Assembly: GCA_017450125.1 (NCBI GenBank)
Contig: JAFSWZ010000014.1
Coordinates: forward strand, 1-64,000
Reading direction: 5' to 3'
Length of the DNA stretch: 64,000 nucleotides
Origin: Synergistaceae bacterium
GTDB lineage: Bacteria; Synergistota; Synergistia; Synergistales; Aminobacteriaceae
This document shows, piece by piece, positions 8,267 to 62,391 of the stretch. The first letter of the stretch is position 1; every line of letters begins with the position of its first letter. Under the pieces are notes generated by a model, which had not been told where the DNA came from, made no database searches, and saw only the letters and a program-made list of their open reading frames with translations. The position numbers and the translations under genes are program-made.

Positions 8267-8301
8267 ACTGCGAACTGCGAACTGCGAACTGCGAACTGCG
8301 A
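8267..8301. repeat. Five tandem copies of a 7-bp unit (ACTGCGA)
   Basis: Five perfect head-to-tail copies of ACTGCGA lie in the 237-base gap between the radical SAM gene and the end of aspS. No other gene or RNA is recognised in this gap apart from the aspS terminator. Confidence 0.95.
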
Positions 8302-8370
8302 ATATTATACGCACACGCGTTCATCACTGTCAACCTCCTTAATGCTGGGATTTCGGAGATTATATCATAA

Positions 8371-20632: not shown

Positions 20633-20637
20633 AGACA

Positions 20638-21021
20638 ATGTCAGACACAACATACACCAGAAGTTACACGCAAATTCAGGATATACCCGCCCCTGATGAC
20701 CTTGTGTCGGGCTGGTTCACCGCAAACCCGATAAACATCGCTTCCGACGGAGGCTTAAAGCGCGGTACGCTCCTGATGAGCAACGGGGACAACATCTTCA
20801 CCCCCGCCGAAAAGGCCGGCATAGCCAACGCCTACGAGCTAGCGATACTCTGTGAGGACATCCCCGACGACGCTACGGAATGCGCCGCAACAGCGTACTT
20901 CACGGGCTTAATCAACGGGGCATCAATCATCCTGCCGTACGAGACGGACAGCGACGTGCATTCAGAGCTGATAGAGGCGGCACGTCCCGCACTGAGACGC
21001 TCGGGCTTCACGATTATATAG
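20638..21021 (+). CDS. Head decoration protein (gpD-like)
   Basis: A 127-residue protein between the protease and capsid genes, where lambda-type phages encode the decoration protein that stabilises the expanded capsid. It has LKRGTLLMSNGDNIF, ALAILCEDIP-type and TAYFTGLINGASI segments and ends GFTII, consistent with the family. Start has only a weak ribosome binding site. Confidence 0.75.
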   Translation: MSDTTYTRSYTQIQDIPAPDDLVSGWFTANPINIASDGGLKRGTLLMSNGDNIFTPAEKAGIANAYELAILCEDIPDDATECAATAYFTGLINGASIILPYETDSDVHSELIEAARPALRRSGFTII

Positions 21022-21031
21022 AGGTGGAACG

Positions 21032-22060
21032 ATGAACGATTACTATGACGCTAAATACCTGCGGGCAGCCATAACCAAGATAACGCCTGCACGCCTATTC
21101 TTCAGGAACAGGTTTTTCACCGAAAGCATGACATTTCCCACAAAGACAGTAACCTTTGAGTACGCAAAGAACACGCGAGCCCTTTTGCCGTTCAGTGATG
21201 ACCACATGCCCAGCCCGCCGGTCAAGCGCAATCCCTATCAGGCCTTGACGTTCACCGCGCCGCTGTTGTCTGGGTCAAGGACGATAACGGCCGACACTCT
21301 AGCACAGAAGCTCATCGGGGAGAGCCCGTACAACTCGGGCATGTCTATGGATGAACGCGCTGAGGAACTTGCGCTGCGGGACTTGATGGAGCTCACGGAC
21401 GCTCTCTACAAGCAGGAGGAGTACATGTGCGCGCGCCTTAAGCAGGACGGGAAATTCACGGTGAACGCAACGGGACTGAACACGACGATAGATTACGGTT
21501 TCACCCAAATAGAGACCGTAGCGAGTGCGAACAAGTGGGGAGCAACGTCTGACGTACTGGGTTACCTCACGAAGAAGGCGCGGGAGCTCCGCAAGAACGG
21601 GATAAATCCCGACATGCTGATAGTAGGGCACGACGCAAGCGAGGCACTCTGCAACAACGAGGGCGTGTTGAAGCTCCGTCATGACCAGTTCGTTGACATT
21701 CCCGCTCCTGCCAGCCTTGAAGACGGCGTTACGTTCGTCTGCAGGCTTAGAGCACCGGGCTTGTACCTGAACGTCTACGAGTACGATGAGTACTACGAGG
21801 ACGAAGACGGGGACTTACAGCCGATGATTGACCCGAAAACGGCTATATTGCAGAGTTCACGGGAGCACAACATGATGTTGCACGGAGCAGTACTGCACAT
21901 AGACACGCGGACAGGGGGGTACGTGAGCGAGATGAGGGAGTACGTGCCCTACGTCGTTACGCATGAAGACCCGCCCGTACGGAAGCTGATTGTGTCATCA
22001 AGGACACTGCCCATGCCGACGGACATAACTTCATGGATTACCCTGAAGAACGTAATCTAA
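21032..22060 (+). CDS. Major capsid protein (lambda gpE family)
   Basis: A 342-residue protein with the gpE-family pattern: RFFTESMTFPTKTVTFEYAKNTRALLPF near the N-terminus, a VKRNPYQALTFTAPLL segment, NPDMLIVGHDAS in the middle and YEYDEYYEDEDG before the end. Length and position are typical. It has a GAGGTGG ribosome binding site and builds the capsid shell. Confidence 0.92.
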   Translation: MNDYYDAKYLRAAITKITPARLFFRNRFFTESMTFPTKTVTFEYAKNTRALLPFSDDHMPSPPVKRNPYQALTFTAPLLSGSRTITADTLAQKLIGESPYNSGMSMDERAEELALRDLMELTDALYKQEEYMCARLKQDGKFTVNATGLNTTIDYGFTQIETVASANKWGATSDVLGYLTKKARELRKNGINPDMLIVGHDASEALCNNEGVLKLRHDQFVDIPAPASLEDGVTFVCRLRAPGLYLNVYEYDEYYEDEDGDLQPMIDPKTAILQSSREHNMMLHGAVLHIDTRTGGYVSEMREYVPYVVTHEDPPVRKLIVSSRTLPMPTDITSWITLKNVI

Positions 22061-22395
22061 CCGGCTGGAACTTACGCGCAATCTTTGACGAGCCCGAGCC
22101 CGACTACATGGAGGCTGAAGTGTTCTTCTCGGCCTTCGGGAAGTACCGCGACATCAACAATCACAGAGTACACTGCATACTGACTTCACCGAAACACAGC
22201 ACACTAACCGCCTACACGGACAGCACCGACGGAGTTCACAGGATAACCGCCATTCTCATCGTGAGGAAGTGCGATGTGTCGGGAATTCGGCAAGGTGCGA
22301 GCCTGTGCGTAGACGGGACGGACTACATCGTTGCTGGGGTAAGTTCGCCCTTGAACGAGGTTACGCGCATTGAGCTGGAGGGGTACTCAGGATGA
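22033..22395 (+). CDS. Head-tail joining protein (gpFII-like)
   Basis: A 120-residue protein overlapping the capsid gene end by 28 bases. The order capsid, this gene, gpZ-like, terminator-like matches the lambda/P2 connector block. Segments such as VHCILTSPKHSTL and GASLCVDGTDYIVAGVSSP resemble the small beta-barrel head-tail joining proteins with DGxxYxV. Assignment rests mainly on position. Confidence 0.6.
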   Translation: MDYPEERNLTGWNLRAIFDEPEPDYMEAEVFFSAFGKYRDINNHRVHCILTSPKHSTLTAYTDSTDGVHRITAILIVRKCDVSGIRQGASLCVDGTDYIVAGVSSPLNEVTRIELEGYSG

Positions 22396-22928
22396 TCCGC
22401 ATAAACGTAACATCGCAGACAGCTGACTTACGGACACTACAGGCTTTGCCGTCTCAACTGCAGAAGGCACTAGGGCTAGCCCGTCGGGACGCGATAAAGA
22501 CGCTCTACGGTTACGCGGCCAAGTTAACGGCCGAGCAGAACTACATCACGCAGAGCGAAGTGAAGAAGGCCACGCGCATAGAGCCTACGGGGCTTCGAGT
22601 GCGTAGCGGCATGCGTGCTCTCGACAAGTACAAGGTTTCACCAAAAGCACCAAGAAAACGCGGCTATCCCCTCATGGGTGCGGTGAAACGCGGCGGCCTT
22701 AAGCCTCTCGGTGCTAACGCGTTCCTTAAACGTAGCGGCGGAAAGTGGCGGCCTTATGTGCGCATCACGCCTGACCGCAAGCCCTACAAGCTTCTGTACG
22801 GGCCCTCCATCGCCCAGCTGGTCGGGAGCGAAAACAACCTACCTCTGATTGAGGAACGTGCGCACGAGCTGTTCACGAACAGGGCAAAGTACTGGACAGA
22901 CCGGCTCACAGGAGGACGCAGGAAATGA
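22392..22928 (+). CDS. Tail completion protein (gpZ-like)
   Basis: A 178-residue, very basic protein (ALGLARRDAIKTLYGYAAKLTAEQNYITQSEVKKATRI at the N-terminus, YGPSIAQLVGSENNLPLIEERA toward the end). The LYGPSIAQ motif and overall pattern match the minor tail protein Z / HK97 gp10-type family, which completes the tail at the head-proximal end. Overlaps both neighbours by 4 bases. Confidence 0.72.
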   Translation: MIRINVTSQTADLRTLQALPSQLQKALGLARRDAIKTLYGYAAKLTAEQNYITQSEVKKATRIEPTGLRVRSGMRALDKYKVSPKAPRKRGYPLMGAVKRGGLKPLGANAFLKRSGGKWRPYVRITPDRKPYKLLYGPSIAQLVGSENNLPLIEERAHELFTNRAKYWTDRLTGGRRK

Positions 22929-23464
22929 ACGCAAAACTATTGATGAATGACCTTGTGGCACTGTTAAAGCAGGAGTTCGCGGGGTACATGTTGCTGAACA
23001 AGTCGGAGGAGCTCACGGAGCTTCACGTCTACGCGCAGTACATCCCCCAGCCCGAAGGGGTAACGTTCGGAGAAACGGGGCTGAAGAGCTACACGGAGGG
23101 GGATTACGCGGCACATTTCCCGAGCATAACGGTGCGCATCGGGGAGATGACGGACAGCGAGGAGCACTCGTTAATTCAGAGCGCGGTGAAAGTTAACCTT
23201 CTTTTCGGTGTAGTGGACAAGTCGCCGGAATGTACGGGATGGGCTGATTTGCTGGACATTCAGGAAAAGCTACGGGGCTGTCTGCTGGAACATCGGGTAC
23301 TTGGCCGCAAGCACATTCTGCGCATGCCCGTGAAGGCTAGGCTGAACGAGTGCGAGACTTGGCCGGTGTACTTTGGGGAGATGGAGCTGTTGTACGAGAG
23401 CGGGCGGCCGGTGATGAACAGCGAGTACGTGTACAGGCCCGCGATGATGACAAGGGAGAGATAA
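22925..23464 (+). CDS. Probable tail terminator protein
   Basis: A 179-residue protein starting MNAKLLMNDLVALLKQEFAGYML, followed by FPSITVRIGEMTDSEEHSLIQSAVKVNLLFGVVD, an alpha/beta pattern seen in tail terminator proteins (gpU-like). Position between gpZ-like and sheath supports this; the family was not recognised directly. Confidence 0.55.
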   Translation: MNAKLLMNDLVALLKQEFAGYMLLNKSEELTELHVYAQYIPQPEGVTFGETGLKSYTEGDYAAHFPSITVRIGEMTDSEEHSLIQSAVKVNLLFGVVDKSPECTGWADLLDIQEKLRGCLLEHRVLGRKHILRMPVKARLNECETWPVYFGEMELLYESGRPVMNSEYVYRPAMMTRER

Positions 23465-23468
23465 CACA

Positions 23469-23720
23469 ATGGACGAACAGACAAACATTCACGCAATATA
23501 CGTCGGCCCGACGATCGCGAAGCTCGGGCTCATCAGAAACCAAGTGTTCCTAGACGGACTGCCCGGCCACATCACAGCCCTGCAGGAAGAGTACCCGGAG
23601 CTAGACGAGCTAATCGTTCCCGTAGAGGGTTGTTCAAGTGCGCTGGACGCGGCCAAGACAAAGGGCACGCACATACATCACGCGGCACAGAAACTCAAAG
23701 AGAAGGCAGGTGTCAGGTAA
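23469..23720 (+). CDS. Small conserved phage protein of unknown function
   Basis: An 83-residue protein (MDEQTNIHAIYVGPTIAKLGLIRNQVF) directly before the sheath, with stop and next start adjoining. Small proteins with xYVGPTIxxLGLxxNqvF and a central pair of acidic helices occur at this place in Mu/P2-like tails. No motif gives a function. Confidence 0.6.
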   Translation: MDEQTNIHAIYVGPTIAKLGLIRNQVFLDGLPGHITALQEEYPELDELIVPVEGCSSALDAAKTKGTHIHHAAQKLKEKAGVR

Positions 23721-24965
23721 ATGTCATTCAGGCATGGCGTGTACAAGCAGGAAGTACCGACGAGCATTATTGCCCCCGCACAGGGAGAGGCCGGACTTCC
23801 CGTCATAATAGGTACAGCCCCCGTACATGAAGCAGATAGCGAGTGCGTCAACATTCCGCGCCTGGTCTACACGTACGAAGAGGCTGTAGAGATATTTGGT
23901 TTTTCAGAGGACTGGGATAATTATACCCTAAGTGAGTTCATTTACTCACAGTTCGCGCTCTTCGGGCAAGCTCCGTGCGTGCTAATCAACGTCTTTGACC
24001 CGGCCAAGCACAAGGACAGTTCCGGCAAGCCCGACCCGTCAAAAGTTACGGCCGCAGACATCATCGGGGGCGTGAACACCACAACCAACACCACAACCGG
24101 CCTCGAGCTCGTCAATGAAGTGTTCCCGCGTTTCAGGCTTGTTCCCGGAATAATCGCGTGCCCCAAGTGGAGCGAAAATCCCGGTGTGGCCGCCGTGATG
24201 CGCGCTAAGGCCGACGCGGTCAACGGGCTGTTCACGTGCATATGCGTGCTGGATATCCCCAGCGATAACAGCGGCGTAACGAACTACACGGCCGCTCCGC
24301 AGTGGAAAGAGCGCAACAACTACGTTGCAGAGCATGAAGTAGTCTGCTGGCCTAAGGTTTCGCTGGACGGCAAGGTCTTTCACATGTCGACACAGCTTGT
24401 AGGCCTCATGAACAAGGTTGACGGCGCGCATGACGACATACCCTACAAGTCCCCGAGTAACGAGCTGTTGCAGATGGACGCGTGCGTTGCGGGCGGGAAA
24501 GAGATACTTTTAGGGCTCGAGCAGGCGAACTACCTGAACAGTCAGGGCATTGTTACTGCGTTGAACTGGATAGGCGGATGGCGGGCTTGGGGCAACAGAA
24601 CAGGGTGCTACCCGGCCAAGACAGACGTAAAGGACTGCTTCATCGCGGTGCGTCGGATGTTCGACTATCTGGGCAACCAGTTCATCCTGACGTTCTGGCA
24701 GCAGACTGACCAGCCCATGACCGCACGCCTTGTGCGAACTATCGTGAACACCTTCAACATGTACCTGAACAGTCTTGTTGCGCGTGAGATGCTGTTAGGG
24801 GCTAGGGTGGAGTTTCGGGAAGACGAGAACATGTACACTGACTTGATGAACGGCATTCTGAAGTTCCACATCTTCATCACGCCGCCTGTTCCGGCTGAAG
24901 TGATTGAGGGTATCTTTGAGTATGATCCCGAGTACCTGCAGGTCTTGTACAACGCGTTGAGCTAA
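23721..24965 (+). CDS. Phage contractile tail sheath protein
   Basis: A 414-residue tail sheath of the P2/Mu type: FRHGVYKQEVPTSIIAP at the N-terminus, TAPVHEADS, LSEFIYSQFALFGQAPCVLINVFDP and a C-terminal GARVEFREDEN...GILKFHIFITPPVPAEVIEG segment. It forms the contractile outer tube around the inner tail tube. Full length. Its stop is one base from the end of a convergent small gene. Confidence 0.93.
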   Translation: MSFRHGVYKQEVPTSIIAPAQGEAGLPVIIGTAPVHEADSECVNIPRLVYTYEEAVEIFGFSEDWDNYTLSEFIYSQFALFGQAPCVLINVFDPAKHKDSSGKPDPSKVTAADIIGGVNTTTNTTTGLELVNEVFPRFRLVPGIIACPKWSENPGVAAVMRAKADAVNGLFTCICVLDIPSDNSGVTNYTAAPQWKERNNYVAEHEVVCWPKVSLDGKVFHMSTQLVGLMNKVDGAHDDIPYKSPSNELLQMDACVAGGKEILLGLEQANYLNSQGIVTALNWIGGWRAWGNRTGCYPAKTDVKDCFIAVRRMFDYLGNQFILTFWQQTDQPMTARLVRTIVNTFNMYLNSLVAREMLLGARVEFREDENMYTDLMNGILKFHIFITPPVPAEVIEGIFEYDPEYLQVLYNALS

Positions 24966-24966
24966 A

Positions 24967-25161
24967 TCATTTTGTTATGAGGTAGAGGATAAACCCAACG
25001 CCGAGCTGTACTACGACAAGCAGAATGCCCAGTATCGAGAAGCCCCACGACACAAAAGACTTCAGGTCATCAATCCTGTTGTTGAGGTTGTTCGTCTCCT
25101 GAATGACGATGTCTATATCTTTGTCGTGCAGGTCTTTACGGACGAAGTCATTATCATTCAT
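24967..25161 (-). CDS. XhlA-like small coiled-coil membrane protein
   Basis: A 64-residue protein on the strand opposite to the late genes: an acidic/Asn-rich coiled-coil helix (VIQETNNLNNRIDDLKSF) followed by one transmembrane segment (SILGILLVVVQLGVGFIL). This is the layout of haemolysin XhlA-type proteins. GAGGT precedes the ATG at 25161. It is second in a two-gene minus-strand cassette between sheath and tube genes. Confidence 0.7.
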   Translation of the reverse strand: MNDNDFVRKDLHDKDIDIVIQETNNLNNRIDDLKSFVSWGFSILGILLVVVQLGVGFILYLITK

Positions 25162-25165
25162 GGAG

Positions 25166-25321
25166 CTACCTCGACAGAAGCCACACGGTGAACGCACCTG
25201 CGGCAATCCAGGCCGACGCGATAAAGGCCATCTGCCGCCAAAAATCGCGCCACAGTTTCCTGCGCCATTCGTCATACGGAAGGACAGGATGACGGCGTTT
25301 GAGCTTTTCACGGATACTCAT
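25166..25321 (-). CDS. Small single-span membrane protein
   Basis: A 51-residue protein starting MSIREKLKRRHPVLPYDEW, with a basic amphipathic N-terminal half and one C-terminal membrane helix (MAFIASAWIAAGAFTVWLL). ATGAGGTGAAAGCT upstream of the ATG is a strong ribosome binding site. It ends four bases before the next minus-strand start, so the pair is an operon. Function unknown. Confidence 0.65.
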   Translation of the reverse strand: MSIREKLKRRHPVLPYDEWRRKLWRDFWRQMAFIASAWIAAGAFTVWLLSR

Positions 25322-25364
25322 AGCTTTCACCTCATAAATTGTTCAGGGATAAGGAGATTATAGC

Positions 25365-25889
25365 ATGCCTAACATCATACCTGAGAAGGTACTAAACTTT
25401 AACGTATACGCAGACGGCGGCCGCTTAATGGGCATTGCCGACGGAAACTTCCCGCCCCTCGAGCTGATGACGGCCGAAATCAAGGGCGCGGGCATAGCAG
25501 GAACTATCGACGCTCCGGGACTGGGACAGTTCGGTTCGCTGGTCATCACGCTGAACTGGCGGCTGACAACGCAAGACTACTGGGAACTTGGAGCACCGGG
25601 CGGGCACATTCTGGACATGTACGCGGCCGGACAGCAGATTGATGCGGGGACGGGAGACCTCATCGCGACGAGAATTCACGTGTTCGCGAAAGCTTTCACG
25701 AAGAAGATGGACCCGGGCAAGCTGGACGTAGTAGCGACGCAGGACGCTTCGACAGAGCACGAAGTGTACTACATGAAGGCCGATATAGACGGGCTTGAAG
25801 TGCTGGAGATAGACAAGATGAACTACATGTACAGGGTGAACGGCGTAGACTATCTTGAAGATGTCCGCGCCGCTCTGGGAATGAGGTAG
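25365..25889 (+). CDS. Major tail tube protein (P2 FII family)
   Basis: A 174-residue protein with the FII-family pattern: IPEKVLNFNVYADG at the N-terminus, PPLELMTAEIKGAGIAGTID, and a C-terminal KADIDGLEVLEIDKMNYMYRVNGVDYLEDVRAALG. It forms the inner rigid tube through which DNA passes. Separated from the sheath gene by the inserted minus-strand cassette. Confidence 0.93.
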   Translation: MPNIIPEKVLNFNVYADGGRLMGIADGNFPPLELMTAEIKGAGIAGTIDAPGLGQFGSLVITLNWRLTTQDYWELGAPGGHILDMYAAGQQIDAGTGDLIATRIHVFAKAFTKKMDPGKLDVVATQDASTEHEVYYMKADIDGLEVLEIDKMNYMYRVNGVDYLEDVRAALGMR

Positions 25890-25893
25890 CACG

Positions 25894-26208
25894 ATGAAGA
25901 TTGAACTCACCAAGCCGATACGCTACAAGGACACAGACATACAGACACTCGACCCTGACTTCGAAAGCCTCACAGGACGCGACCTCATCGACGCAGAAAA
26001 AGCCCTCCGTGCGCAGGGTCAAACCTTCTCCGCGTGGGAGTTCTCACGGAGCTACTTAGCGGCCATCGCGGCACGTGCCTGCGGGCTTCCCCGTGAAGTC
26101 CTCGAGGACATGAACGTTACTGACTTCACACGCATCACACTTGAGGCGGCGGCTTTTTTGGGCGGACAGGCCTCTGCGGCCTCAACGCAAACAAATTCCG
26201 ACGACTAA
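25894..26208 (+). CDS. Tail assembly chaperone gpE-like (zero-frame product)
   Basis: A 104-residue protein (LTKPIRYKDTDIQTLDPDFESLTGRDLIDAEKAL ... AAIAARACGLPREVLEDMNVTDFTRIT). It sits between tube and tape-measure genes, where all long-tailed phages encode the tail assembly chaperone that guides tape measure and tube polymerisation. A slippery heptamer near the 3' end allows a longer -1 product. Confidence 0.85.
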   Translation: MKIELTKPIRYKDTDIQTLDPDFESLTGRDLIDAEKALRAQGQTFSAWEFSRSYLAAIAARACGLPREVLEDMNVTDFTRITLEAAAFLGGQASAASTQTNSDD

Positions 26209-26372
26209 TCTTCGCGCTGGCTCTGAGTGAAGCTCACACGGGCATTGATGTGTGGCTGGGCATGACACTTCCTGAACTCTCAGAGTGGTGCTCCATCATC
26301 ACGGAGCACTACAAAAAACAACATACAGCACAAAACCCCAGAACAGCGCACCAAAGAACAGCGCACCAATAA
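25894..26372 (+). CDS. Tail assembly chaperone gpE-E' fusion by -1 frameshift
   Basis: The longer product shares residues 1-88 with gpE, shifts at TTTTTTG (26154-26160) and continues GRTGLCGLNANKFRRLIFALALSEAHTGIDVWLGMTLPELSEW to the TAA at 26370-26372. The second part has the expected helical pattern with a conserved Trp pair, and lacks its own start. Its last ~24 codons overlap the 3' end of an opposite-strand gene and read as a low-complexity tail (TAHQRTAHQ), which suggests the original end was altered by that insertion. Confidence 0.78.
26154..26160 (+). promoter_or_regulatory. Slippery heptamer for programmed -1 frameshifting (T TTT TTG)
   Basis: In the zero frame the bases read GCT TTT TTG GGC, so the X-XXY-YYZ heptamer is T TTT TTG in correct phase. 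Slippage by -1 opens a 70-codon extension. Location in the chaperone gene before the tape measure is the classical position. Confidence 0.8.
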
Positions 26373-26538
26373 CATTGAATGCTAATTTAAGCAGACGGGT
26401 TGAAAGCCTGTTGTTGAAGTCTTTCTCGAAGGCTTCAACATTCCGGCGGTAACGCGTCCAGTCTTCCCCTTCAAGGCCGCCGATATACTCCTTGAAGGGG
26501 TCATGATAACAGCGTCTGTAACTGTCATGAATACTCAC
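26299..26538 (-). CDS. Small opposite-strand membrane protein
   Basis: A 79-residue protein, GTG start at 26538 with GGGGTG upstream: a charged, Tyr/Asp-rich helical first half (DPFKEYIGGLEGEDWTRYRRNVEAFEKDFNNRL) and a C-terminal transmembrane helix (VIGALFFGALFWGFVLYVVF). It lies on the strand opposite to the late genes, overlapping the frameshifted chaperone end. Layout resembles the other minus-strand small genes here. Confidence 0.6.
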   Translation of the reverse strand: MSIHDSYRRCYHDPFKEYIGGLEGEDWTRYRRNVEAFEKDFNNRLSTRLLKLAFNVIGALFFGALFWGFVLYVVFCSAP

Positions 26539-26604
26539 AGCAATACACCCCGCAAAATTGATGATGGAATGCAGAAATCTTAACAGAAAGGAGGCCTGTA
26601 GTAT

Positions 26605-28947
26605 ATGGCTAAAATCTTGGAACTGGCTGTAAATCTTTCGATGCTGACCAGCGGCAACCTCATTCCCGAAGCCACTAAAGCGGGTCAGGCCATAGCCGCA
26701 CTGCAGACAAGGGCTAAAACGCTTCAGGCCGCCACACGGCAGATTGAGGGCTTCCAGAAACAGCGCGCCTCATTGGAACAGCTCCGCGAGAAAATGGGGC
26801 AGGCTCGTGAACGCGTCAGAGTACTGCGCGAAGAGTTCAGCAAGACTAATGCCCCTACAGCAGCAATGCGCAAGCAGTTCGCAGACGCACAGAGACATGC
26901 GGGCATGCTGGAGGCGAAGTTCCAGACGCAGAGACAGAGGCTTGCCGAGCTGAACAGTGAGCTGATGAAAAGCGGCATCAACACCCGAAACCTGACAGGC
27001 GAACAGCAGAAGCTAGCCGCCGCGTCGGACAAAGTTAAAGCCGCTCAGGACCGCCTAGCGAACGCACAGAGCAAATTTGCGCAGATACGGGGACAATTGA
27101 GCTGGGACAACATGAAGAATGACCTCATTACGTCCCTTGCTCTAATCAAAACCTTTCAGGCACCTATAAAGGTTGACATGGATTTTGAGCAGGCGATGGC
27201 TCAGGTCAACTCTGTAGCCGCGCTCACTCAGGAACAGTTCACTTCACTGCGCAAACAAGCCCTCGAACTCGGAAGCTCGACGCAGTTCACGGCAACGCAG
27301 GCCGCCGCATCACAGGAAGTACTAGCCCGCGCCAATCTGAAGCCGCAGGAGATACTGGTAGCCCTGCCTCACATTCTGCAGACTGCTGGGGCTGAAGGCA
27401 TGGACATTTCACAGGCCGCAGACATCCTCATCAACGTCACGAAGAACATGAACCTTCCCATAAGCGAGATGGGGCGGGTTGCCGACGTAATGGCCTACAC
27501 ATCTGCGCACTCCAACACGAACATTGCGCAGTTAGGTGAGGCAGCACTCAAAGCCGCAGGGCCTTTCGCGTCAATGGGCGGCAGTGTTGAGGAGCTGATG
27601 GCGACGCTCGGGGCTATGAGCAACACAGTACGCGGAGCTGAGGCGGGAACTGCGTTATCGAGTGTCCTCCGCAGGCTCGGCTCTGACCCCGCTCAGGCAC
27701 GCAACGAGTTATCACGTTACGGCATCAGAACGCAGACGCGCAAAGGAGACTTTGCACCGTTCGCGGAAATCATCGCGCAGGTTGCACTGAAGGGCGAAAA
27801 GTTAGGCTCAAAGACAGCCGCAAGAATGAGGGGCAACATTTACGGGCAGTTCGGCGCGCAGATGCAGGGACTTGAACGCACCCTCATGAACGGGGAATAT
27901 TCCGAGCTTCTGGAAGGGACGCAGAAGAAGAGAGACGGTGCGTCTAGCCGGATGAACGCAACACGCAACGACACTCTTAAGGGAGACATTACGTCGCTGG
28001 GTTCGGCGTGGGAAGGCCTGATGATACGTATCGGCAAGGCACTAGACCCGATAAACAGGTTTTTCACGCAGACGCTCACTAAGGGTGTGCAGAAGCTCAA
28101 TGAGATTATTGACACGATGGGCCCGTTCGCAGATTTGATTGCGCAGGCCGCCTATTTTATCGGGGGCTTCATGGTGCTTCGGACCGTCTGGAAGTACCTA
28201 TCTCTCTCAGTTCAGGCCTTCAAGGCGTTCATTGAGCTGAAAGGTGCAATCACTGCCATTGAGGGGGCTACGTCAGCGTTCGGGGGGTTGAGCTCAATGC
28301 TCAGCGGGCTGGGGGCAATCATCATGGCTCACCCCGTCATCGCAATAGGTACGCTCGTTGCAGGTGCTGTCGCTCTGGCCATCGCTAACTGGGATACCCT
28401 CAAAGAATGGTGGGCATCATGGGTACTGCCTAACGTCTGGGAGCCGTTGGCGCGTTGGTGCGAGGAAACTATCTCGTACCTTAAAGGGATATGGGAAGGC
28501 TTCACTAATTGGCTGTCTAACCTCAACCCCTTCAAGAACTGGGACAAACCCAGCGTTGACTTGGCCGCAGGCAAAGCGGCTGTACGGAGCGGGACTGTCC
28601 AGAACCTTGCTCCGAGCTACATGCAGGCTCACGCAACGGGAGGCATACTCACAACGCCACACATCGGGCTTGTTGCGGAAGACGGCCCCGAAGCAGTCAT
28701 ACCCTTGCGGGACAAAGCGCGCGGTGTTCCCTTGCTGATGCAGGCCGCTGAACTGCTCGGCGTAACTCCTGCGGCGGGAGGTTATCTCTCTCCGTCCGCT
28801 TCATCACCCGCTCCTGCAACCGTGAACATCACAGTGAACGTTCAGGGCAACTCAGAGGACGCGGGGCTTGCTGAAAGGATTGCGGCGGCTGTGAGGGACG
28901 CACTGTCGGACATCATGAGCCTCGAGGAGAGGGTGAGTTATGCCTAG
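26605..28947 (+). CDS. Phage tail tape measure protein
   Basis: A 780-residue tape measure protein that sets tail length. Residues ~30-170 are coiled coil; ~190-470 match the TP901-type core (FEQAMAQVNSVAALTQEQFTSLRKQALELGSSTQFTATQAA, GAEAGTALSSVLRRLG). Hydrophobic segments follow at ~515-600, and a C-terminal domain has LVAEDGPEAVIPL. A strong AAAGGAGG lies upstream of the ATG. Length is in the range for P2-like tails. Confidence 0.93.
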   Translation: MAKILELAVNLSMLTSGNLIPEATKAGQAIAALQTRAKTLQAATRQIEGFQKQRASLEQLREKMGQARERVRVLREEFSKTNAPTAAMRKQFADAQRHAGMLEAKFQTQRQRLAELNSELMKSGINTRNLTGEQQKLAAASDKVKAAQDRLANAQSKFAQIRGQLSWDNMKNDLITSLALIKTFQAPIKVDMDFEQAMAQVNSVAALTQEQFTSLRKQALELGSSTQFTATQAAASQEVLARANLKPQEILVALPHILQTAGAEGMDISQAADILINVTKNMNLPISEMGRVADVMAYTSAHSNTNIAQLGEAALKAAGPFASMGGSVEELMATLGAMSNTVRGAEAGTALSSVLRRLGSDPAQARNELSRYGIRTQTRKGDFAPFAEIIAQVALKGEKLGSKTAARMRGNIYGQFGAQMQGLERTLMNGEYSELLEGTQKKRDGASSRMNATRNDTLKGDITSLGSAWEGLMIRIGKALDPINRFFTQTLTKGVQKLNEIIDTMGPFADLIAQAAYFIGGFMVLRTVWKYLSLSVQAFKAFIELKGAITAIEGATSAFGGLSSMLSGLGAIIMAHPVIAIGTLVAGAVALAIANWDTLKEWWASWVLPNVWEPLARWCEETISYLKGIWEGFTNWLSNLNPFKNWDKPSVDLAAGKAAVRSGTVQNLAPSYMQAHATGGILTTPHIGLVAEDGPEAVIPLRDKARGVPLLMQAAELLGVTPAAGGYLSPSASSPAPATVNITVNVQGNSEDAGLAERIAAAVRDALSDIMSLEERVSYA

Positions 28948-55364: not shown

Positions 55365-56339
55365 TCACTCCCTGCCCTGAACGTTGCTGAGGTCAACAAC
55401 ACAGCCTCCCCACGACAGGCCTACACCGAAACCTGCCAGCATTACGCGCCGGAGATTCGCGCTGTCGTTCTGTCTGAGGAGGTCGCGGACGGCTATCGGA
55501 ACAGACGCTGATACTGTGTTGCCGTAGTCTGTTACGTCGTTCCAGAAGGGGAGACCCTGAAGGCCGCACTTTTCCTGAAGGAAGCCGAGCATCATCTTAT
55601 TTGCCTGATGGAAGACGTAGTAATCTATCTCTTCACGCGTTAATGATGACTTGGCCAAGACTTCATCGAGCATCACGGGCACGGCATCAAGCGCGAACTC
55701 CATTATTCCCGCCCCGTCCATGTACAGATCTCTGTTCGTCCTGACGTTGCCGAAAGCGTCGGTGTACTCCTGAAGCTCCGTGCTGGAGTATGAATGCCTC
55801 GCTCCTCCTACAGGAACAATCAGCTTCTCCGCACCGCTCCCGTCCGTCCCGTACACAAAGCCGTAAATCCCTTCACTCTCCGCCTCAACCCCGCTCACCA
55901 GAGTAGCCGCCGCACCGTCCCCGAAAAGCGGGCGTGTCGCGTTGTCCTTAGGGCTGATGTGCCTGCTGTAGGTCTCTGAGGTCAGGAGAAGGACATTCTT
56001 TGCCTGCCCGGACTCGATTAATCCTTTGGCGAGGCCGAGACCGTAGACGTACCCTGAACACCCGAGATTGACATCAACAGCTCCGCATGTCTTCGGGAGA
56101 CCCAGCCTGTCCTGAATTATACATGCGGTTGTGGGCAGGAAATAGTCCGGCGACTGCGTGCAGAGAATCACGAAATCTATTAGTCCCCCCCCCCCGTCAG
56201 TAATTCCCGCAAAGAGATTCTCGGCGGCTTTCACTGCCATGTCTCCTGCGGTCATTCCGGGCGGACAGATTCGCCGGCGTTCGATGCCCGTCTTCTTCCG
56301 AAGGCGCGCGTTCGTGTTCTCCTCGACGACTTCGGGCAA
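55365..56339 (-). CDS. 3-oxoacyl-ACP synthase III-like enzyme 1, carries G11 tract
   Basis: A KAS III/FabH-type condensing enzyme: Cys in VDVNLGCSGYVYGL, His in YYVFHQANKMML and Asn in DYGNTVSASVP give the full C-H-N triad. The first standard start is a TTG at 56339, but the frame upstream (KAYITGINYY) looks like the native N-terminus, with ATA at 56370-56372 where ATG is expected. An 11-G run encodes part of TDGGGGLID (~50). It would condense an acyl-CoA starter with malonyl-ACP. Last gene of a seven-gene operon. Confidence 0.85.
   Translation of the reverse strand: MPEVVEENTNARLRKKTGIERRRICPPGMTAGDMAVKAAENLFAGITDGGGGLIDFVILCTQSPDYFLPTTACIIQDRLGLPKTCGAVDVNLGCSGYVYGLGLAKGLIESGQAKNVLLLTSETYSRHISPKDNATRPLFGDGAAATLVSGVEAESEGIYGFVYGTDGSGAEKLIVPVGGARHSYSSTELQEYTDAFGNVRTNRDLYMDGAGIMEFALDAVPVMLDEVLAKSSLTREEIDYYVFHQANKMMLGFLQEKCGLQGLPFWNDVTDYGNTVSASVPIAVRDLLRQNDSANLRRVMLAGFGVGLSWGGCVVDLSNVQGRE
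56185..56195. repeat. Homopolymer G11/C11 inside KAS III gene 1
   Basis: Eleven consecutive C on the plus strand (G on the coding strand), in frame with the intact gene. A gain or loss of one base would truncate the enzyme. Confidence 0.95.
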
Positions 56340-56368
56340 GTAGTAATTTATTCCCGTTATGTATGCTT

Positions 56369-57118
56369 TTATGCTGAATACCCCCCGTCAACAACAAAAC
56401 TCTTCCCGTTTATCCCGCACGAATCATTGCTCAGCAGGAACATCACGGACTGGCTGATGTACTCCGGCTTCCCCTTGCCAAGAAGATGTCCGGCCAAGAC
56501 ACCGGCAGTGTCATTCATCGCGGCTATTTCGCGGGTCAGCGGAGTGTCCACCCAGCCCGGAAGAATGCTGTTCACCCTGTGTCCGCCCGCCGAGAGCTCC
56601 TGTGCCAGCGAACTCACTGCACCATTCATCGCAGACTTGGCCGAAGCGTAGACGGTTTTGCCCTTGTCGGCAGTCAGCGCAGAGACAGACGAGAACAGCA
56701 CCGTAGACGTAGGAGCCTCCGAAAATTCTGGACTTGTTATGATGCGAAGAAACTCGATGCCTGCCCAGAAACTTGTGTCCATAATCTCATGCCCCCCCCC
56801 CCCGTAAGCAAAATTACGCAGAGGAGTAAGAGCGTCTATACCTGCCGCGTGTACTCCGCCTTTCAGCCTGCCGTGCTCCCTGACGAATGAAGCTATCGCG
56901 TCCTCGAGGGCTTGTGTGTCGCACACGTCGAGAGATGCCGTGAAGATGCGTGATGGTGCAATGTTACGCAGGGCTCCGAGACGTTCTGCGTTCCTGCCTA
57001 TGCCCAGAACAACTGCTCCGGCCTCCGCAAGGTCAAGGGCAACCTGTCTGCCTATCCCCGATGACGCGCCTGTAACTGCGTAACGTTCGCCCGAAAAATC
57101 GTAGATTACTCTGCTCAT
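56369..57118 (-). CDS. Short-chain dehydrogenase/reductase 1, carries G12 tract
   Basis: A 249-residue SDR, FabG-like: TGASSGIGRQVALDLAEAG (NAD(P)-binding glycine loop, ~16), catalytic Ser in LFSSVSAL, Tyr and Lys in YASAKSAMNG (~160), ILPGWVDTPL and a C-terminal INGKSFVVDGGYSA. Likely reduces the 3-ketoacyl-ACP made by the linked synthases. Twelve G encode GGGG in NFAYGGGGHEIM, where the paralogue next door has DRERA, so the tract is a local replacement. ATGA overlap with SDR 2. Confidence 0.9.
   Translation of the reverse strand: MSRVIYDFSGERYAVTGASSGIGRQVALDLAEAGAVVLGIGRNAERLGALRNIAPSRIFTASLDVCDTQALEDAIASFVREHGRLKGGVHAAGIDALTPLRNFAYGGGGHEIMDTSFWAGIEFLRIITSPEFSEAPTSTVLFSSVSALTADKGKTVYASAKSAMNGAVSSLAQELSAGGHRVNSILPGWVDTPLTREIAAMNDTAGVLAGHLLGKGKPEYISQSVMFLLSNDSCGINGKSFVVDGGYSA
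56792..56803. repeat. Homopolymer G12/C12 inside SDR gene 1
   Basis: Twelve consecutive C on the plus strand; the gene is in frame at this length. Confidence 0.95.
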
Positions 57119-57861
57119 GATAAATATCCTCCGTCAACTACTACGTTGCTGCCAGTTATCCAGCACGACGCATCACTGAGCAGGAACAGCACCATCTTGC
57201 TGATGTATTCCGGCCTGCCCGCACCAAAAAGATGCTTCGCTATGACGGCCTCGATTTCCGGGCTCGTCTCGAACTGCCCCGTCATTCCCGTAACCGTCCA
57301 GCCGGGAAGGATACTGTTGACGCGGTGCTTCTTGGCGGCGATCTCCTTCGCGGCACACTTCACTGCTGTGTTGACGGCGGATTTTGCGGCCGCGTAGGCG
57401 AACATCCCCTTAGCTGGATGGAGGGAGTATTCCGACGAGAAGAGCACCGTAGACGTTCCGGGATTGCCGTACTTCGCGCGCGTGATGAGCTGGAGGAGGT
57501 TCATCCCTGCCCAGAAGCTGACGTTCATTATCTCGTGCGCACGCTCACGGTCATAGCTCCGCAGGGGTGTCGTGTCGCTTATCCCCGCCGCGTGAACCCC
57601 TCCAGACAACTTGCCGTGCTCCGCGACGAAGCTCGCAATGGCATCCTCGAGAGCCTCAGAGTCGCAGACATCCAGCGATGCCGTGAAGATGTTTTCGGGG
57701 TGGGAGAGCCTGACCTCCTCGAGACGTTCTGCGTTCCTCCCAACAGCAAGAACACACGCTCCGGCTTCCGCGAGCTCGAGCGCGACCTGACGGCCTATTC
57801 CCGACGAAGCTCCCGTAACGACAAACTGTTCGCCAGAGAAGTCATAAGTTACCTTGCTCAT
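57115..57861 (-). CDS. Short-chain dehydrogenase/reductase 2
   Basis: A 248-residue SDR paralogue of SDR 1: TGASSGIGRQVALELAEAG, Ser in LFSSEYSL, YAAAKSAVN with Tyr and Lys, ILPGWTVTGM and GSNVVVDGGYLS. A complete Ser-Tyr-Lys set. Probably a second ketoreductase of the pathway, or an enoyl-type reduction partner. Overlaps KAS III 2 and SDR 1 by ATGA at both ends. No homopolymer tract. Confidence 0.9.
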   Translation of the reverse strand: MSKVTYDFSGEQFVVTGASSGIGRQVALELAEAGACVLAVGRNAERLEEVRLSHPENIFTASLDVCDSEALEDAIASFVAEHGKLSGGVHAAGISDTTPLRSYDRERAHEIMNVSFWAGMNLLQLITRAKYGNPGTSTVLFSSEYSLHPAKGMFAYAAAKSAVNTAVKCAAKEIAAKKHRVNSILPGWTVTGMTGQFETSPEIEAVIAKHLFGAGRPEYISKMVLFLLSDASCWITGSNVVVDGGYLS

Positions 57862-58856
57862 GATAAATACACCTCTCTAGTCTTTGTGCCCGAGAAGTCA
57901 GCGAGACACACTCCGACAGACAGACCCACACCAAAACCGCAGCACAGTACACGCTGATGCTTGGCCGCGTCCGTGCGCACAATCACTGAGGGTATGGAGG
58001 CTGATGATTCGTTGCCGATGTCGCCGGAAGTGAACGGCATCTTCTCGCGCGGAACTCCGAGTTTGTCGGCCAGGCTGTCCAGTATCAGCTTGTTGGCCTG
58101 ATGGCAGGCGTAGAGGGTAATGCTGTCGCGGGTGAGGCTGTTGCGTTCCATGAAGGAAGTGATGGCTTCAGGGACTTCGTTCATCGAGAAGTTGAGTATC
58201 TCCACGCCGTCAAGGTAGATGTAGCCGTCCCGTTTGGGGCTGGGAGTGATTCTGCTCCGGCTGTTCTCCATTATGACAACGCCGTACTTTTCCCCGTACG
58301 TGGCGAAAGCAAAAGGTATATCCTGCCCTCCGGGCGTTACGAGGATTGCTGAAGCTCCGTCGCCGTAGATGCACCGCGAAGCCCTGTCGTCGGGGTCTGT
58401 AATTCTGCTGTTCGTGTCCCCGCAGCCCAGCAGCACTGGAGCTCCGAGACGGCTCGACATCATCGCAGCGACGTACAGTCCCCTCACGAATCCCGAGCAC
58501 CCCTCGCTGATGTCAATGCATATGACGCTGTTGCTCAGGCCTAGTTTGTGCTGGAGGACGTGGCTTGTGGCAGGCATGTCGTAGTCAGGAGTCTTCGAGA
58601 CGAACACGAGCCCCGCAACCTCTTCACGCCTGCGCCCCTCTAGAATCTTCCCAGCTGCCTCCGCGAACAAGTCTGCTGTGGTTACACCCTCAGGAGCGAT
58701 CCTCAGCGAGGAGAAACCCGTGCTCTTGGCCAAGCGGGCGGCGGTCTTCTCGTTGAGGAGGTTGGGAGCGTATTCCGCGAGAGAGAACGTCTGCGCAGGA
58801 AGTGCACACACTATCTCCGCAACGTCTACGCCCCTGACACAGTCGAACACCGGCAT
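57858..58856 (-). CDS. 3-oxoacyl-ACP synthase III-like enzyme 2
   Basis: A 332-residue KAS III paralogue with full triad: Cys in DISEGCSGFVRGL, His in LYACHQANKLIL, Asn in DIGNESSASIPSV. It is only loosely similar to enzyme 1, so the two probably act on different acyl chains or steps. Begins two bases after the ACP stop. The order ACP-KAS-SDR-SDR-KAS resembles small dedicated fatty-acid/polyketide-like assembly lines. Confidence 0.9.
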   Translation of the reverse strand: MPVFDCVRGVDVAEIVCALPAQTFSLAEYAPNLLNEKTAARLAKSTGFSSLRIAPEGVTTADLFAEAAGKILEGRRREEVAGLVFVSKTPDYDMPATSHVLQHKLGLSNSVICIDISEGCSGFVRGLYVAAMMSSRLGAPVLLGCGDTNSRITDPDDRASRCIYGDGASAILVTPGGQDIPFAFATYGEKYGVVIMENSRSRITPSPKRDGYIYLDGVEILNFSMNEVPEAITSFMERNSLTRDSITLYACHQANKLILDSLADKLGVPREKMPFTSGDIGNESSASIPSVIVRTDAAKHQRVLCCGFGVGLSVGVCLADFSGTKTREVYLS

Positions 58857-58858
58857 AG

Positions 58859-59077
58859 CTACTCAGCCTGAAGCAGGTTGTACAGGTCGCGAATGCTCAC
58901 GCAGTCCCTGATCAGCGCAGGAGCAAGCCTCTTTCCGCACGAAGAGTTCGCGAACGCCGCGAAGCTCACGATGCTTAAACTGTCCCACTCCTCAACGTCT
59001 GCAAGCACTGTGTCCATCGTTACGCTCTCGTTGTCGAGGATTTCCCTGATTTTCGCTGTAAAGTCTTTCTCGTTCAT
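58859..59077 (-). CDS. Acyl carrier protein
   Basis: A 72-residue ACP: acidic, helical, with the phosphopantetheine-attachment Ser in VEEWDSLSIVSF (EWDSL motif, ~31-35). It would carry the growing acyl chain for the linked synthases and reductases. A dedicated ACP inside the operon supports a specialised acyl product rather than housekeeping fatty acid synthesis. Confidence 0.88.
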   Translation of the reverse strand: MNEKDFTAKIREILDNESVTMDTVLADVEEWDSLSIVSFAAFANSSCGKRLAPALIRDCVSIRDLYNLLQAE

Positions 59078-59101
59078 GATAGTACCTCCGTTAATGTTGG
59101 G

Positions 59102-59935
59102 TTAGTAGTTGGTGCCGTTGAAGTCCATCGAGTTGGTGTCTGCCCTGTAGATCGGCGGCACAATGTCCATGACCTGCTCTGCCGCTCCCATTGTGTACTG
59201 GGACACGTGAGCCGTCTTGCGGCTGCCGAGTATTCCCGGCGTAAGAGAGTAGTACAGGTACGGCATGAGCCTGCTTGCGCGCGGAAATCTCTCCGCGAAC
59301 TTCGGGCTGACCTCGCCGAATATCCTTCCTGACGGAACAATGTTCTTGATCCTGCGCTTGAGCACGAAATAGCACTTGCCGTTCACGGTCAGGACAGCGG
59401 CGTTCCTCTGCGTGAACGAGAAATTCTCCGCGTACTCGTCGCTGATGTAGGGCATACTCTTCAGGAAGTCGTCGGTGAGGCCGCGATAGAAGCGCAGGTA
59501 GTATTCCGCCAGCACCCAGCCCGCCGCGCGGTTCACCGGGTGAGCCATCTTGCCGGGAAAACCGTAGATGCGTGCGTTGGGGTAGTGCTTCCCGAGCTCG
59601 TCGTAGAGAGAGTAGAGCATGTCGAGGACATAGCCGCCTTTGCGGACAGACGGCATTGTCGCGAAGTCGCACATCTGGAACGCAATCCGGCCGTCGAGGT
59701 CATTCCGCCAGGCTCCCCAAGTGGCGATGGGCTTGTCTTCACGGTAGACCACGATGATGAAGCTCTTGCCGTAGCAGTTGGCCTCGAACTTCCTGCGCAT
59801 GTAGTCAAGGTCGAAGTGATCCACGAATACGGTGTTGCAGACATCGCAGTAGTCCTGCGCGGTTTTGTCGGTGATTTCGCCTGACCACTCAATGGCCAGC
59901 TTCTCGCCGCGTTCTTCTGAAAGCGTAATAATCAT
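59102..59935 (-). CDS. Acyltransferase-like (GNAT-fold) protein
   Basis: A 277-residue protein starting MIITLSEERGEKLAIEW at 59935 on an ATGA overlap with the deacetylase gene. Segments FIIVVYREDKPIATWGAWRND, FATMPSVRKGGYVLDMLYSLYDEL and ARIYGFPG fit a GNAT core with the acyl-donor pocket after a beta strand. Next to a dedicated ACP and a deacetylase, it may transfer the acyl chain to an amino sugar (inference). No closer family recognised. Confidence 0.6.
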   Translation of the reverse strand: MIITLSEERGEKLAIEWSGEITDKTAQDYCDVCNTVFVDHFDLDYMRRKFEANCYGKSFIIVVYREDKPIATWGAWRNDLDGRIAFQMCDFATMPSVRKGGYVLDMLYSLYDELGKHYPNARIYGFPGKMAHPVNRAAGWVLAEYYLRFYRGLTDDFLKSMPYISDEYAENFSFTQRNAAVLTVNGKCYFVLKRRIKNIVPSGRIFGEVSPKFAERFPRASRLMPYLYYSLTPGILGSRKTAHVSQYTMGAAEQVMDIVPPIYRADTNSMDFNGTNY

Positions 59936-61732
59936 CTCTTCTTGCTGCCTCCAAGTTTCTTGATAATCTTGGACATTACCTGCTTCGCTGTGTAGATAAT
60001 GCCCCTCTTCCTCAGCATGTACCAATAGCTCTGGAAACGCTGCTTCTGCCTCACACGGAACTTCACGCGGTTGAGCTTCTTCTGTTCCGCCGCAAGCCTC
60101 GAACGCAGGCCGTCCATGTATTCGCGGCTGCGTGCCCTGAAGACCGCCCGACAGTACAGCCCGCCTTCACACGATGCAGTTACCGCAACATCCCCCGAGC
60201 CCTCGAACACAAGCCTTCCGTCCTCCAGACGCGCAGAACCCTCGACCTCCCAGCTGACCGGCGCATCAGTGCGGTACTGGTAGCACTCAAGCGGGATGCT
60301 CTGCTCGTCCGGGTCTCTGTCGTACTCGTAGACAAAATTCCCGCCGCTCGTTATCTGGATGAACGGCCTCACTACGGCTTCCTGTTCCGCCTGAGCGAAG
60401 AACTCAGCCTCCGCAAGTCCCGACTCACTGCTTCCCTGCGCGAGAACTTTTATCCGGCACTCGGTTACGCCCTGCTGTTCGGGAATCTCGAGAGTGAGGG
60501 GCAGACCTTCCGCAGGCAGAGGCCCGGCCTCAACGCTGTAGCCTGTGTTCATGCTCACGGAGACTTTCTGCAGAGGCACGCCGTCAACGTTGCCCCACAG
60601 CCTTACGAGCGAGATTGTCTGCGGTTCGTCCCACGAAAAGACGAGCTCCTTCACGGTGTCGTCCGCATCAGGAATCCACAGGTAGTTCTCCCACTTCGGG
60701 GTGTCGGAGTCAACTTCGGAGACGTTCAGCAGACGGAAATCTTTTGCGCAACCGGCATTCCCTGATGAGGCCGAGACTTTTGCGCGGAAGCTCAGGCTGT
60801 CAGTGCGCCGCCGCCAGAAGACTTCGTCGGCGTTGATTACGCGCTCTGCCTGAATGAACGCATCCTGAGAGACATGCTGACGCAGTGCCCGCTCGAGGAT
60901 GTTGCCCTCGAAGATAGGCCTGCTCGCTTCAGGGACGGGGAAACGCACGCGGTCTTCCCAAGAGTAGTACGACGTTCCGACTATCTTCTTGTCGTAGCTC
61001 TGCGTGTGTCCGGGCTCAGGCCTGACGGTTGACAGCAGGAACGTAGAGCTGAACAGGTCGGGCTCTCCATTCCAGCCTATGCAGTACGCGAACCTCCTGA
61101 AGACTTCGGGCAGGTAATCGTTGCCAGGTCTGGACAATATTTCTCCCATCACCTCGTCGAACGAGAGGGAAAGCATCCTGTGGTCTGCGTGCCAGTCGAA
61201 GTCTACGGCGAGAATGACATCAGCCCTGACGTGAAGGATGAGCTCCTTCAAGTCCTGCAAGTAGTTCCTGCGCGTGTAGGGGCTGTGCTGTTTGCGTGTC
61301 AGGTACGCAAAGTCCGTGAACCCCGCCGCTCCGTAGGTCTCTGTGTGGCCGCTGGCTGAAGTTATGGGGTTGTCCTTAGCGTAGAAGATGTGCCCGGTCT
61401 CTGAGTTGTTGAGGGTTTCGGCAAAAGCAAGGCAGAAGATGTGCGAGCGGTCGAGGCCAAGAACCTGCAGAGAGTTTGCGGCTTCACTTATGCGTACCTC
61501 GAACGAGTACCAGTCGTAATAATCCCCGCTGTTGGCGAACGCGACAAAGACTTCTGCACCTGCATGAATGAAATTCTGGATGGAGTTTGCTGCTACGTTG
61601 ATTTCGTCGTCCTGATGGGGTACTAGTACTAGAACTTTTCTTCCTGCATAAGAATCATCGAAGAATGAATCACAATAATGGTCAGGTCTGGTCTGGTCTG
61701 GTCTGGTCAAAATCGTAGCGTTTCACAGCCAT
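59932..61732 (-). CDS. PIG-L family deacetylase with C-terminal domains; reading frame phase-variable at the 5' end
   Basis: PIG-L type zinc deacetylase of N-acetylated sugars: VLVLVPHQDDEINVAANSIQ (His-x-Asp-Asp zinc motif) and DFDWHADHRMLSL (second His). After ~220 residues come a beta-sandwich like F5/8 (SLVRLWGNVDGVPLQKVS) and an Ig-like segment, then a basic helical tail. The best start is ATG at 61732 (AAAGGA upstream). In that frame translation stops after 16 codons because of a GACCA-type pentanucleotide repeat; the long frame begins only at TTG 61710. One more repeat unit would join them. First gene of the operon. Confidence 0.8.
61681..61709. repeat. Pentanucleotide tandem repeat at the 5' end of the deacetylase gene
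   Basis: Four perfect copies of GTCTG (plus strand) flanked by two partial copies. Five is not a multiple of three, so any copy change alters the frame between the ATG at 61732 and the deacetylase body. Confidence 0.95.
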
Positions 61733-61804: not shown

Positions 61805-62338
61805 TTACCTTACCGGCTCAAGGAGGCCGTAGCTGTTCTCCCCGCGCTTGTAGATGACGTTGATTTCTCCTGTCGCGGCGTTCTGGAACATGAAGAACTC
61901 GTGCCCAACTAACTCCATCTGCATTGCCGCTTCTACGGGGTCCATCGGGTGAAATTCCACCTTCTTGACCTTGTCGATTGCGGGAACATTGCCGTCAGCC
62001 TCTGCCGTCTCCTCAAGGCTGAACGTGAACTCTGTGTCCGCGCCTAACTGTGCCTTGTCCTTAAGGTATGAGTTGTACTTCTTGATTCTGCGCTCCAAGT
62101 TCTTGAGCGACTGGTCGAATGCCGTCCTCATGTCCGTTGCGTCTTCCTCAGCACGGAGAATTACGCCGTTGGCATTTGCGGTGGTTTCGACGTTGAAGCT
62201 GCCCTTGTGATGCGTAACAACTATCTGGCAGTTCAGTATCTTGCGGAAGAACTTCTCGAGCTTGGAGATCTTCTTCTCCATGTAGTCCCTGAGTTTGTCG
62301 TCAACAGTTGCGCCGCGCTGTACAAACCGAACTTCCAT
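61805..62338 (-). CDS. hpf: Ribosome hibernation promoting factor, long form
   Basis: A 177-residue protein: N-terminal beta-alpha domain with MEVRFVQRGATVDDKLRDYMEKKISKLEKFF, which binds the 30S decoding site, and a C-terminal dimerisation domain with VEFHPMDPVEAAMQMELVGHEFFMFQNAATGEINVIYKR. The two-domain long form makes 100S ribosome dimers in stationary phase. ATG at 62338 follows AGGAGGTG. Confidence 0.95.
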   Translation of the reverse strand: MEVRFVQRGATVDDKLRDYMEKKISKLEKFFRKILNCQIVVTHHKGSFNVETTANANGVILRAEEDATDMRTAFDQSLKNLERRIKKYNSYLKDKAQLGADTEFTFSLEETAEADGNVPAIDKVKKVEFHPMDPVEAAMQMELVGHEFFMFQNAATGEINVIYKRGENSYGLLEPVR

Positions 62339-62391
62339 AAACAGCACCTCCTGAAAAGTTGAATAGCTGGATGCACATATTATACTAGATT

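Follow-up and report, generated by a model that had tools for sequence, protein, structure and literature searches.

What might be made by a seven-gene operon that joins a deacetylase and a putative acyltransferase to an acyl carrier protein (ACP) of its own, and why do three of its members carry repeat tracts? The question is raised by the first 64,000 nucleotides (the window) of contig JAFSWZ010000014.1 from a gut-type Synergistaceae bacterium, whose genome (G000) is a 97% complete draft. Read along the minus strand from 61732 to 55365, the genes encode a PIG-L family de-N-acetylase, a GNAT-like protein, an ACP, a ketoacyl-ACP synthase III (KAS III; KAS3a), two short-chain dehydrogenase/reductases (SDRa and SDRb) and a second KAS III (KAS3b). 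Gene calls and family profiles bear out a preliminary description, made from the letters alone, of seven genes on one strand in this order. On balance we favor the reading that the operon is phase-variable and serves the N-acylation of a surface sugar. In the proposed mechanism the private ACP would carry a short hydroxyacyl group assembled by the two KAS III and two SDR enzymes, 3-hydroxybutyryl after one round or 3,5-dihydroxyhexanoyl after two; PIG-L would de-N-acetylate a sugar of a surface glycan, or a precursor of that sugar, and the GNAT-like protein would load the ACP-bound hydroxyacyl group onto the amine thus exposed. The deacetylase, the second reductase and the type B KAS III would be switched by tract slippage, so that cells would differ in the N-acylation of that sugar. 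We infer the acyl group, the order of the steps, the sugar and the surface location from sequence.

The acyl machinery comprises the ACP (72 residues, 58859-59077), KAS3a (type A, 57858-58856), SDRa (57115-57861), SDRb (56369-57118) and KAS3b (type B, 55365-56372). Both KAS III proteins score above the PF08545 and PF08541 cut-offs and keep the catalytic Cys-His-Asn, while both SDRs, which are 60% identical to each other, score above those of PF13561 and PF00106, keep the catalytic Ser-Tyr-Lys and would fit SDR-type ketoacyl-ACP reductases. The ACP reaches no Pfam cut-off; its assignment comes from its size, its DSL motif (EEWDSLS) and its identity (51% and 63%, respectively) to ACP-sized proteins beside KAS3b homologues in the relatives G072 and G087. 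The housekeeping AcpP stands apart from the operon, being the single TIGR00517 match in the genome (G000:C28), and AcpP and FabF sit on another contig. No KAS III (PF08541) was found outside the operon in the draft, and 11 of the 43 genomes of the genus have one. The earlier proposal that a private ACP and two condensing enzymes serve a specific acyl group is thus supported by the operon having its own ACP and the sole KAS III genes found. A KAS III match is absent from the other 32 genus genomes, including 22 of the 30 whose completeness is 90% or more. Because these 32, some of them incomplete, have no match, housekeeping FabH was dropped as the identity of the operon enzymes; with no KAS III matched in most of the genus, fatty-acid initiation there may run without FabH. 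In the operon, profile searches turned up neither a dehydratase nor an enoyl reductase nor an elongation KAS. Acting alone its enzymes could make 3-hydroxyacyl or 3,5-dihydroxyacyl groups and not a saturated chain, intermediates could still pass to the housekeeping system, and the lack of a dehydratase and an enoyl reductase makes a short hydroxyacyl group likelier than a lipid.

The two condensing enzymes belong to different lineages. In a KAS III tree of 103 rows (thinned at 80% identity from 144, with midpoint rooting only) the sequences split into a KAS3a side of 37 rows and a KAS3b side of 66 (support 100/99). Twenty contigs contribute at least two rows and 17 of them hold exactly one type A and one type B, with examples from Photobacterium, Paenibacillus, Bacteroidota, Selenomonadaceae, G059 and the window; the exceptions are G057 (two A and one long-branched B), G167 (two A) and L192 (two B). 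As judged from this tree, types A and B are two clades that pair across phyla. The KAS3b of the window groups with those of G072 and G087 inside an otherwise Negativicutes clade, suggesting transfer between gut bacteria.

The proposed exchange at the amine would fall to the first two genes. The PIG-L protein (59932-61732, its frame taken from frame arithmetic and orthologues) matches PF02585 at 52.5 bits (cut-off 28.2), has a C-terminal extension with a match to DUF7402 below the cut-off, and carries PHQDDE and HADH motifs, read by eye, that we take to be metal-site motifs. Known PIG-L/LmbE enzymes act on sugars. The 277-residue product of the second gene (59102-59935) reaches no family cut-off (PF13527 at 14.2 bits against 25, E-value 0.044), matched no solved structure by sequence (best E-value 0.16) and in tblastn gave weak matches to GNATs on three Haloterrigena plasmids (E-values 6e-4 to 3e-3). 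A structural model built from two sequences has a mean pLDDT of 52.7, which is low confidence and usable at best for residues 1-149; a model without an alignment (pLDDT 37) was useless. Fold searches with this low-confidence model gave, among the matches listed (50 each), almost only acetyltransferase or GNAT-like entries aligned over residues 1-149, with Z reaching 9.4 and TM-scores, taken relative to the query, near 0.3, pointing to a probable GNAT-fold acyltransferase.

The pairing of a deacetylase with a GNAT after it is seen again with PF01522, a deacetylase family unrelated to PIG-L. In G056 a GNAT homologue (37% identical) directly follows a polysaccharide deacetylase (PF01522) on a short contig that has no ACP or KAS III, and in G087 (Fretibacterium sp., contig L131) the order is polysaccharide deacetylase (PF01522), GNAT (PF13527 at 21.8 bits, below the cut-off of 25), ACP, KAS III and SDR, the last three being 63%, 68% and 66% identical to their operon counterparts. 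The order in G072 is aminotransferase, formyltransferase, GNAT, ACP, SDR and KAS III. Together these three arrangements indicate that the acyl core is kept whereas the step that makes the amine varies; in the operon the place of the aminotransferase is taken by the PIG-L deacetylase. A further relative of the operon, in G088, has KAS III, SDR, ACP, SDR, AMP-binding, GNAT, LuxE and LuxC genes, a point of likeness to the Aeromonas islands discussed below.

The three tracts that had been reported (G11, G12 and a 5-bp repeat) are confirmed by coordinates and sequence. KAS3b contains the G11 tract (C11 on the plus strand, 56185-56195), SDRb the G12 tract (C12 on the plus strand, 56792-56803) and PIG-L, after codon 8, a GACCA pentamer tract (61679-61708; Tandem Repeats Finder 6.0 copies, 92% match) in which four perfect consecutive units are flanked by imperfect ones. 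C11 and C12 are the only G/C runs of at least 8 in the window, where 0.011 runs of at least 11 would be expected under a first-order Markov formula. Both poly-G tracts are in frame at their present length, and by frame arithmetic one or two bases more or fewer in either truncates the protein. The deacetylase frame from the ATG at 61732, which has a Shine-Dalgarno-like AAAGGA upstream, meets a stop after 16 codons in the assembly and is therefore OFF; this ATG was kept as the start because the orthologues in G083 and G046 are in frame from the matching ATG. The poly-G tracts are not shared by the homologues compared: no G run exceeds 6 in the gene in three close KAS3b homologues or 7 anywhere in the gene in four SDR homologues, and a less closely related SDR, from G059, bears a G11 of its own at a different position. 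The deacetylase tract differs between species, the orthologue in G083 having a short degenerate repeat and that in G046 none, while in G054 the contig ends within the repeat, in its sixth copy, five being complete.

The lengths of the tracts may vary between cells. The earlier count of up to eight on/off states is arithmetic, and the distinct products are probably fewer. It is a tentative and rather unlikely extension that slippage would set which acyl group is shown (acetyl, 3-hydroxybutyryl, 3,5-dihydroxyhexanoyl or a keto form), and we give little weight to the corresponding deacetylate-and-reacylate switch, in which the modification would be not just on or off but tunable in its chemistry. 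Against full tuning, the modules of many relatives have KAS3b-type enzymes and no other KAS III; KAS3b may therefore prime, and its loss would stop the chain.

Runs of this kind are common beyond the window. G000 has 36 G runs of at least 9, 29 of them of at least 11; 30 of the 36 were inspected (26 of these at least 11), and their host genes, judged by eye from sequence starts (profile searches covered the window's own genes alone), include glycosyltransferase-like and pilin-like genes and others whose role is unclear. Tracts of G11 or longer are present in 95 of 185 genomes of the phylum, comprising 38 of the 43 in the genus (maximum 51, in G063) and 57 of the 142 outside it (highest 33 in G156 and 16 in G149). 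Ten of the 11 KAS III genomes of the genus, with G053 left out, were compared over KAS III-bearing stretches whose bounds we chose: 7 of the 10 stretches have a run of at least 9 with the window included and 6 of the 9 without it, and in 13 of the 14 runs the G lies on the operon strand, some runs sitting in neighboring genes and not in the KAS III genes. Among the matches listed, the open-access literature yielded no report of phase variation in Synergistota; the passages of PMC2996958, PMC11868660, PMC3711429 and PMC3234257 report none in Synergistetes, that of PMC3711429 counting only 218 frameshift-gene predictions in two Synergistetes genomes.

Several repeats outside the operon are recorded here in their own right. 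Four G11-G13 runs lie about 1 kb apart at G000:C23:62057-65054 (L076-L079, L107), the first three in consecutive glycosyltransferase-like genes and the fourth in a membrane-protein-like gene (by eye). A G12 run (L080, G000:C24:15547) stands 57 nt upstream of the ATG of a flagellin gene (959 residues, L105:7618-10497, identified by eye from its N-terminus), so that flagellin expression itself may be switchable. Within the window a perfect heptamer repeat of about 5 copies (8267-8302) follows a TTGACA/TATAAT-like promoter, read by eye, and stands upstream of a radical SAM gene (7260-8177, minus strand), a 56% homologue of which lies between gyrB and a thioesterase gene in G063.

The junctions and flanks of the operon bear on whether it is intact. 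ATGA overlaps, claimed earlier at four of the six junctions, are genuine at three (PIG-L/GNAT, KAS3a/SDRa and SDRa/SDRb), and the fourth, SDRb/KAS3b, reads ATAA; GNAT-ACP and ACP-KAS3a are separated by gaps of 24 and 2 bp and do not overlap. Close KAS3b homologues start MKAYI with an ATG at the codon that reads ATA here, and the apparent KAS3b start may for this reason be weak or damaged. A promoter-like TTGACA-17-TACGAT at 61740 overlaps the deacetylase start; the numbers of promoter-like (5 versus a shuffle mean of 3.1) and terminator-like sites (5 versus 6.0) are near shuffle means. Outside the operon, a convergent thioesterase gene (TIGR00051, 54893-55363, plus strand) marks the left insertion boundary and the gene for the ribosome hibernation factor HPF (61805-62347, minus strand) the right one. 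In G083, G057 and G048 gyrB, thioesterase and HPF are consecutive, with only small open reading frames between them and nothing operon-like, and in G068, G054 and G084 other genes occupy the gyrB-HPF gap (LicD-like, by eye, in G068). Absence of the cassette from the same gap in relatives indicates that the operon is an accessory insertion. Across the genus the gyrB-HPF interval is variable (L110-L116). FliS and FlgN-like genes 2.5 kb away, considered as a flagellin link, adjoin gyrB; because a like order beside gyrB is seen in G066 (from sequence starts), their link to the operon is weak. At about 16390-28947 the window holds prophage genes for terminase gpA, a lambda-type portal and a minor tail protein.

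From the same observations one could argue that the islet is a horizontally acquired cassette in the course of being lost, with the frameshift and the ATA start as damage and the tracts as incidental. The out-of-frame deacetylase, the KAS3b start, the empty gap in G083, G057 and G048 and the grouping of KAS3b with G072 and G087 in a Negativicutes clade would all agree with such decay. We nevertheless judge it unlikely, since the other six genes are full length (the KAS3b start being doubtful) with catalytic residues kept, the loss of the deacetylase frame falls in a repeat tract common to the G054 orthologue, and 6 of the 9 other KAS III stretches examined in the genus also have poly-G runs.

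The surroundings of KAS3b relatives in other phyla suggest what the acyl group may be attached to. A genome scan with a KAS3b alignment gave 585 confirmed matches. Of the loci (up to 17 kb) of the best 80 of these, 57 hold an SDR, 46 an ACP, 36 two or more KAS III, 45 a DegT aminotransferase, 53 a PglD/GNAT-type acyltransferase and 58 one or other of the last two. Eighteen control loci from the same genus (195 kb) have none of these families save two acyltransferase matches in one locus, and are a weak control because the organisms differ. In Propionispira raffinosivorans the row reads pseB, pseC, pseF, pseG, pseH, ACP, SDR, KAS III, pseI, with all six pse genes above NCBIfam cut-offs and the acyl core between pseH and pseI. 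This position and the deacetylase-GNAT pairing support the earlier suggestion that the acyl group is plausibly placed on an amino sugar. Pseudaminic acid itself was rejected as the G000 sugar: G000 has no TIGR03586 (PseI) match at an E-value of 1e-40, as against 3 of the 43 genus genomes that match, and the sugar is thus probably another one.

The terms glycolipid and surface lipid used in the preliminary description find no support here, the operon having no elongation KAS, dehydratase or enoyl reductase. A lipid-like acyl chain put on a lipid-linked amino sugar would be in keeping with the general occurrence of ACP, KAS III, SDR, deacetylase and acyltransferase in lipid pathways, and intermediates could pass to the housekeeping FabF; given the missing elongation functions, and many KAS3b relatives that lie beside aminotransferases and PglD/PseH-type acyltransferases, one of them in the complete pse cluster, we regard it as quite improbable. 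Equally, a small secreted or signaling metabolite, made by putting a short polyketide-like chain on an amine through the GNAT, is very doubtful: KAS III, ACP and ketoreductase sets do occur in secondary metabolism and the operon has no glycosyltransferase, but the same core in other genomes is often beside sugar genes and PIG-L/LmbE enzymes are known for action on sugars.

Several findings weigh against N-acylation of a surface sugar. The complete gene set occurs in 1 of the 185 phylum genomes, G000; a search for the same gene order, the check proposed in the preliminary description, found the whole set only here, but the ACP-KAS III-SDR linkage recurs widely. The GNAT is found in 2 of the 185 (together with PIG-L in G000 only) and PIG-L in 4 (G000, G046, G054 and G083), the last three of which, of the same genus, have no KAS III match, indicating a role for PIG-L that does not depend on this acyl group. 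(The PIG-L orthologue of G083, L098:7310-13729, adjoins an alpha-amylase-family gene and flagellar hook-like genes, the latter by eye.) Profile searches of the operon found no glycosyltransferase or nucleotide-sugar gene, aminotransferase included, and 22 of the best 80 of the 585 KAS3b loci have neither an aminotransferase nor an acyltransferase. The GNAT assignment rests on a low-confidence model, and both the OFF state of the deacetylase and the ATA start in the assembly also fit decay. If N-acylation is nonetheless the correct reading, Synergistota would have poly-G contingency genes that control how a surface sugar is acylated, the operon's enzymes could install hydroxyacyl amides by way of deacetylation and not through an aminotransferase, and the recurring KAS III A/B pair may carry out one-round or two-round chemistry.

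The preliminary description knew of no system combining these parts. For the core this is wrong, since the viosamine island, wfpC-wfpG and the Aeromonas group II islands, as presented in the passages of the papers cited here, use a similar one. The viosamine island of Pseudomonas syringae (vioA, M, T, S, B, R and acp) is responsible for N-3-hydroxybutyryl viosamine on flagellin, which is lost in vioA, vioB, vioT and vioR mutants, vioS and acp resting on homology (PMC3927599). It shares with the operon an ACP, a KAS III (vioS), a ketoacyl-ACP reductase (vioR) and an acyltransferase (vioB), whereas its amine comes from the aminotransferase vioA, it has one KAS III and one reductase, and it includes a glycosyltransferase and a methyltransferase (PMC3927599). 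In Flavobacterium psychrophilum the O-polysaccharide R-group genes wfpC-wfpG are proposed to give rise to the 3,5-dihydroxyhexanoyl amide that nuclear magnetic resonance showed on Qui2NAc4N, the gene roles being the authors' prediction (PMC6519341). Here the likeness, drawn by description (our sequence comparison covered other Flavobacterium loci), extends to an ACP, a pair of distinct ketoacyl-ACP synthases, reduction of ketoacyl-ACP and an acyltransferase; the last is however a PglD homologue, the amine arises via PglE/PglF and there is one reductase (PMC6519341). The Aeromonas group II flagellin glycosylation islands (orf1 ACP, orf2 reductase, orf3 AMP synthetase, luxE, luxC) also place an ACP and a reductase among flagellin glycan genes, but use a LuxC/LuxE/AMP-ligase route (PMC7874193) that is absent from the window operon.

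Products of the predicted kind are likewise familiar: psaG/H of A. baumannii predict 7-N-hydroxybutanoyl pseudaminic acid (PMC6586298), and several surface polysaccharides of marine origin contain hydroxybutyryl amides (PMC3210612). The switch has its counterpart in Campylobacter jejuni Cj1295, where poly-G variation turns di-O-methylglyceric acid on a flagellin amino sugar on and off; the likeness lies in poly-G phase variation of an acyl-type sugar modification, and the differences in another gene and in length variants and a product that were proven experimentally (PMC3068675). In the open-access literature, among the matches listed, no union of core, switch and PIG-L deacetylase was found, nor any paper on PIG-L with hydroxybutyryl and ACP or on Campylobacter acpP2/fabH2. 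The core and the switch are thus each already known, and what is apparently new is a PIG-L enzyme in the aminotransferase's place, the complete set, and three tracts in one operon.

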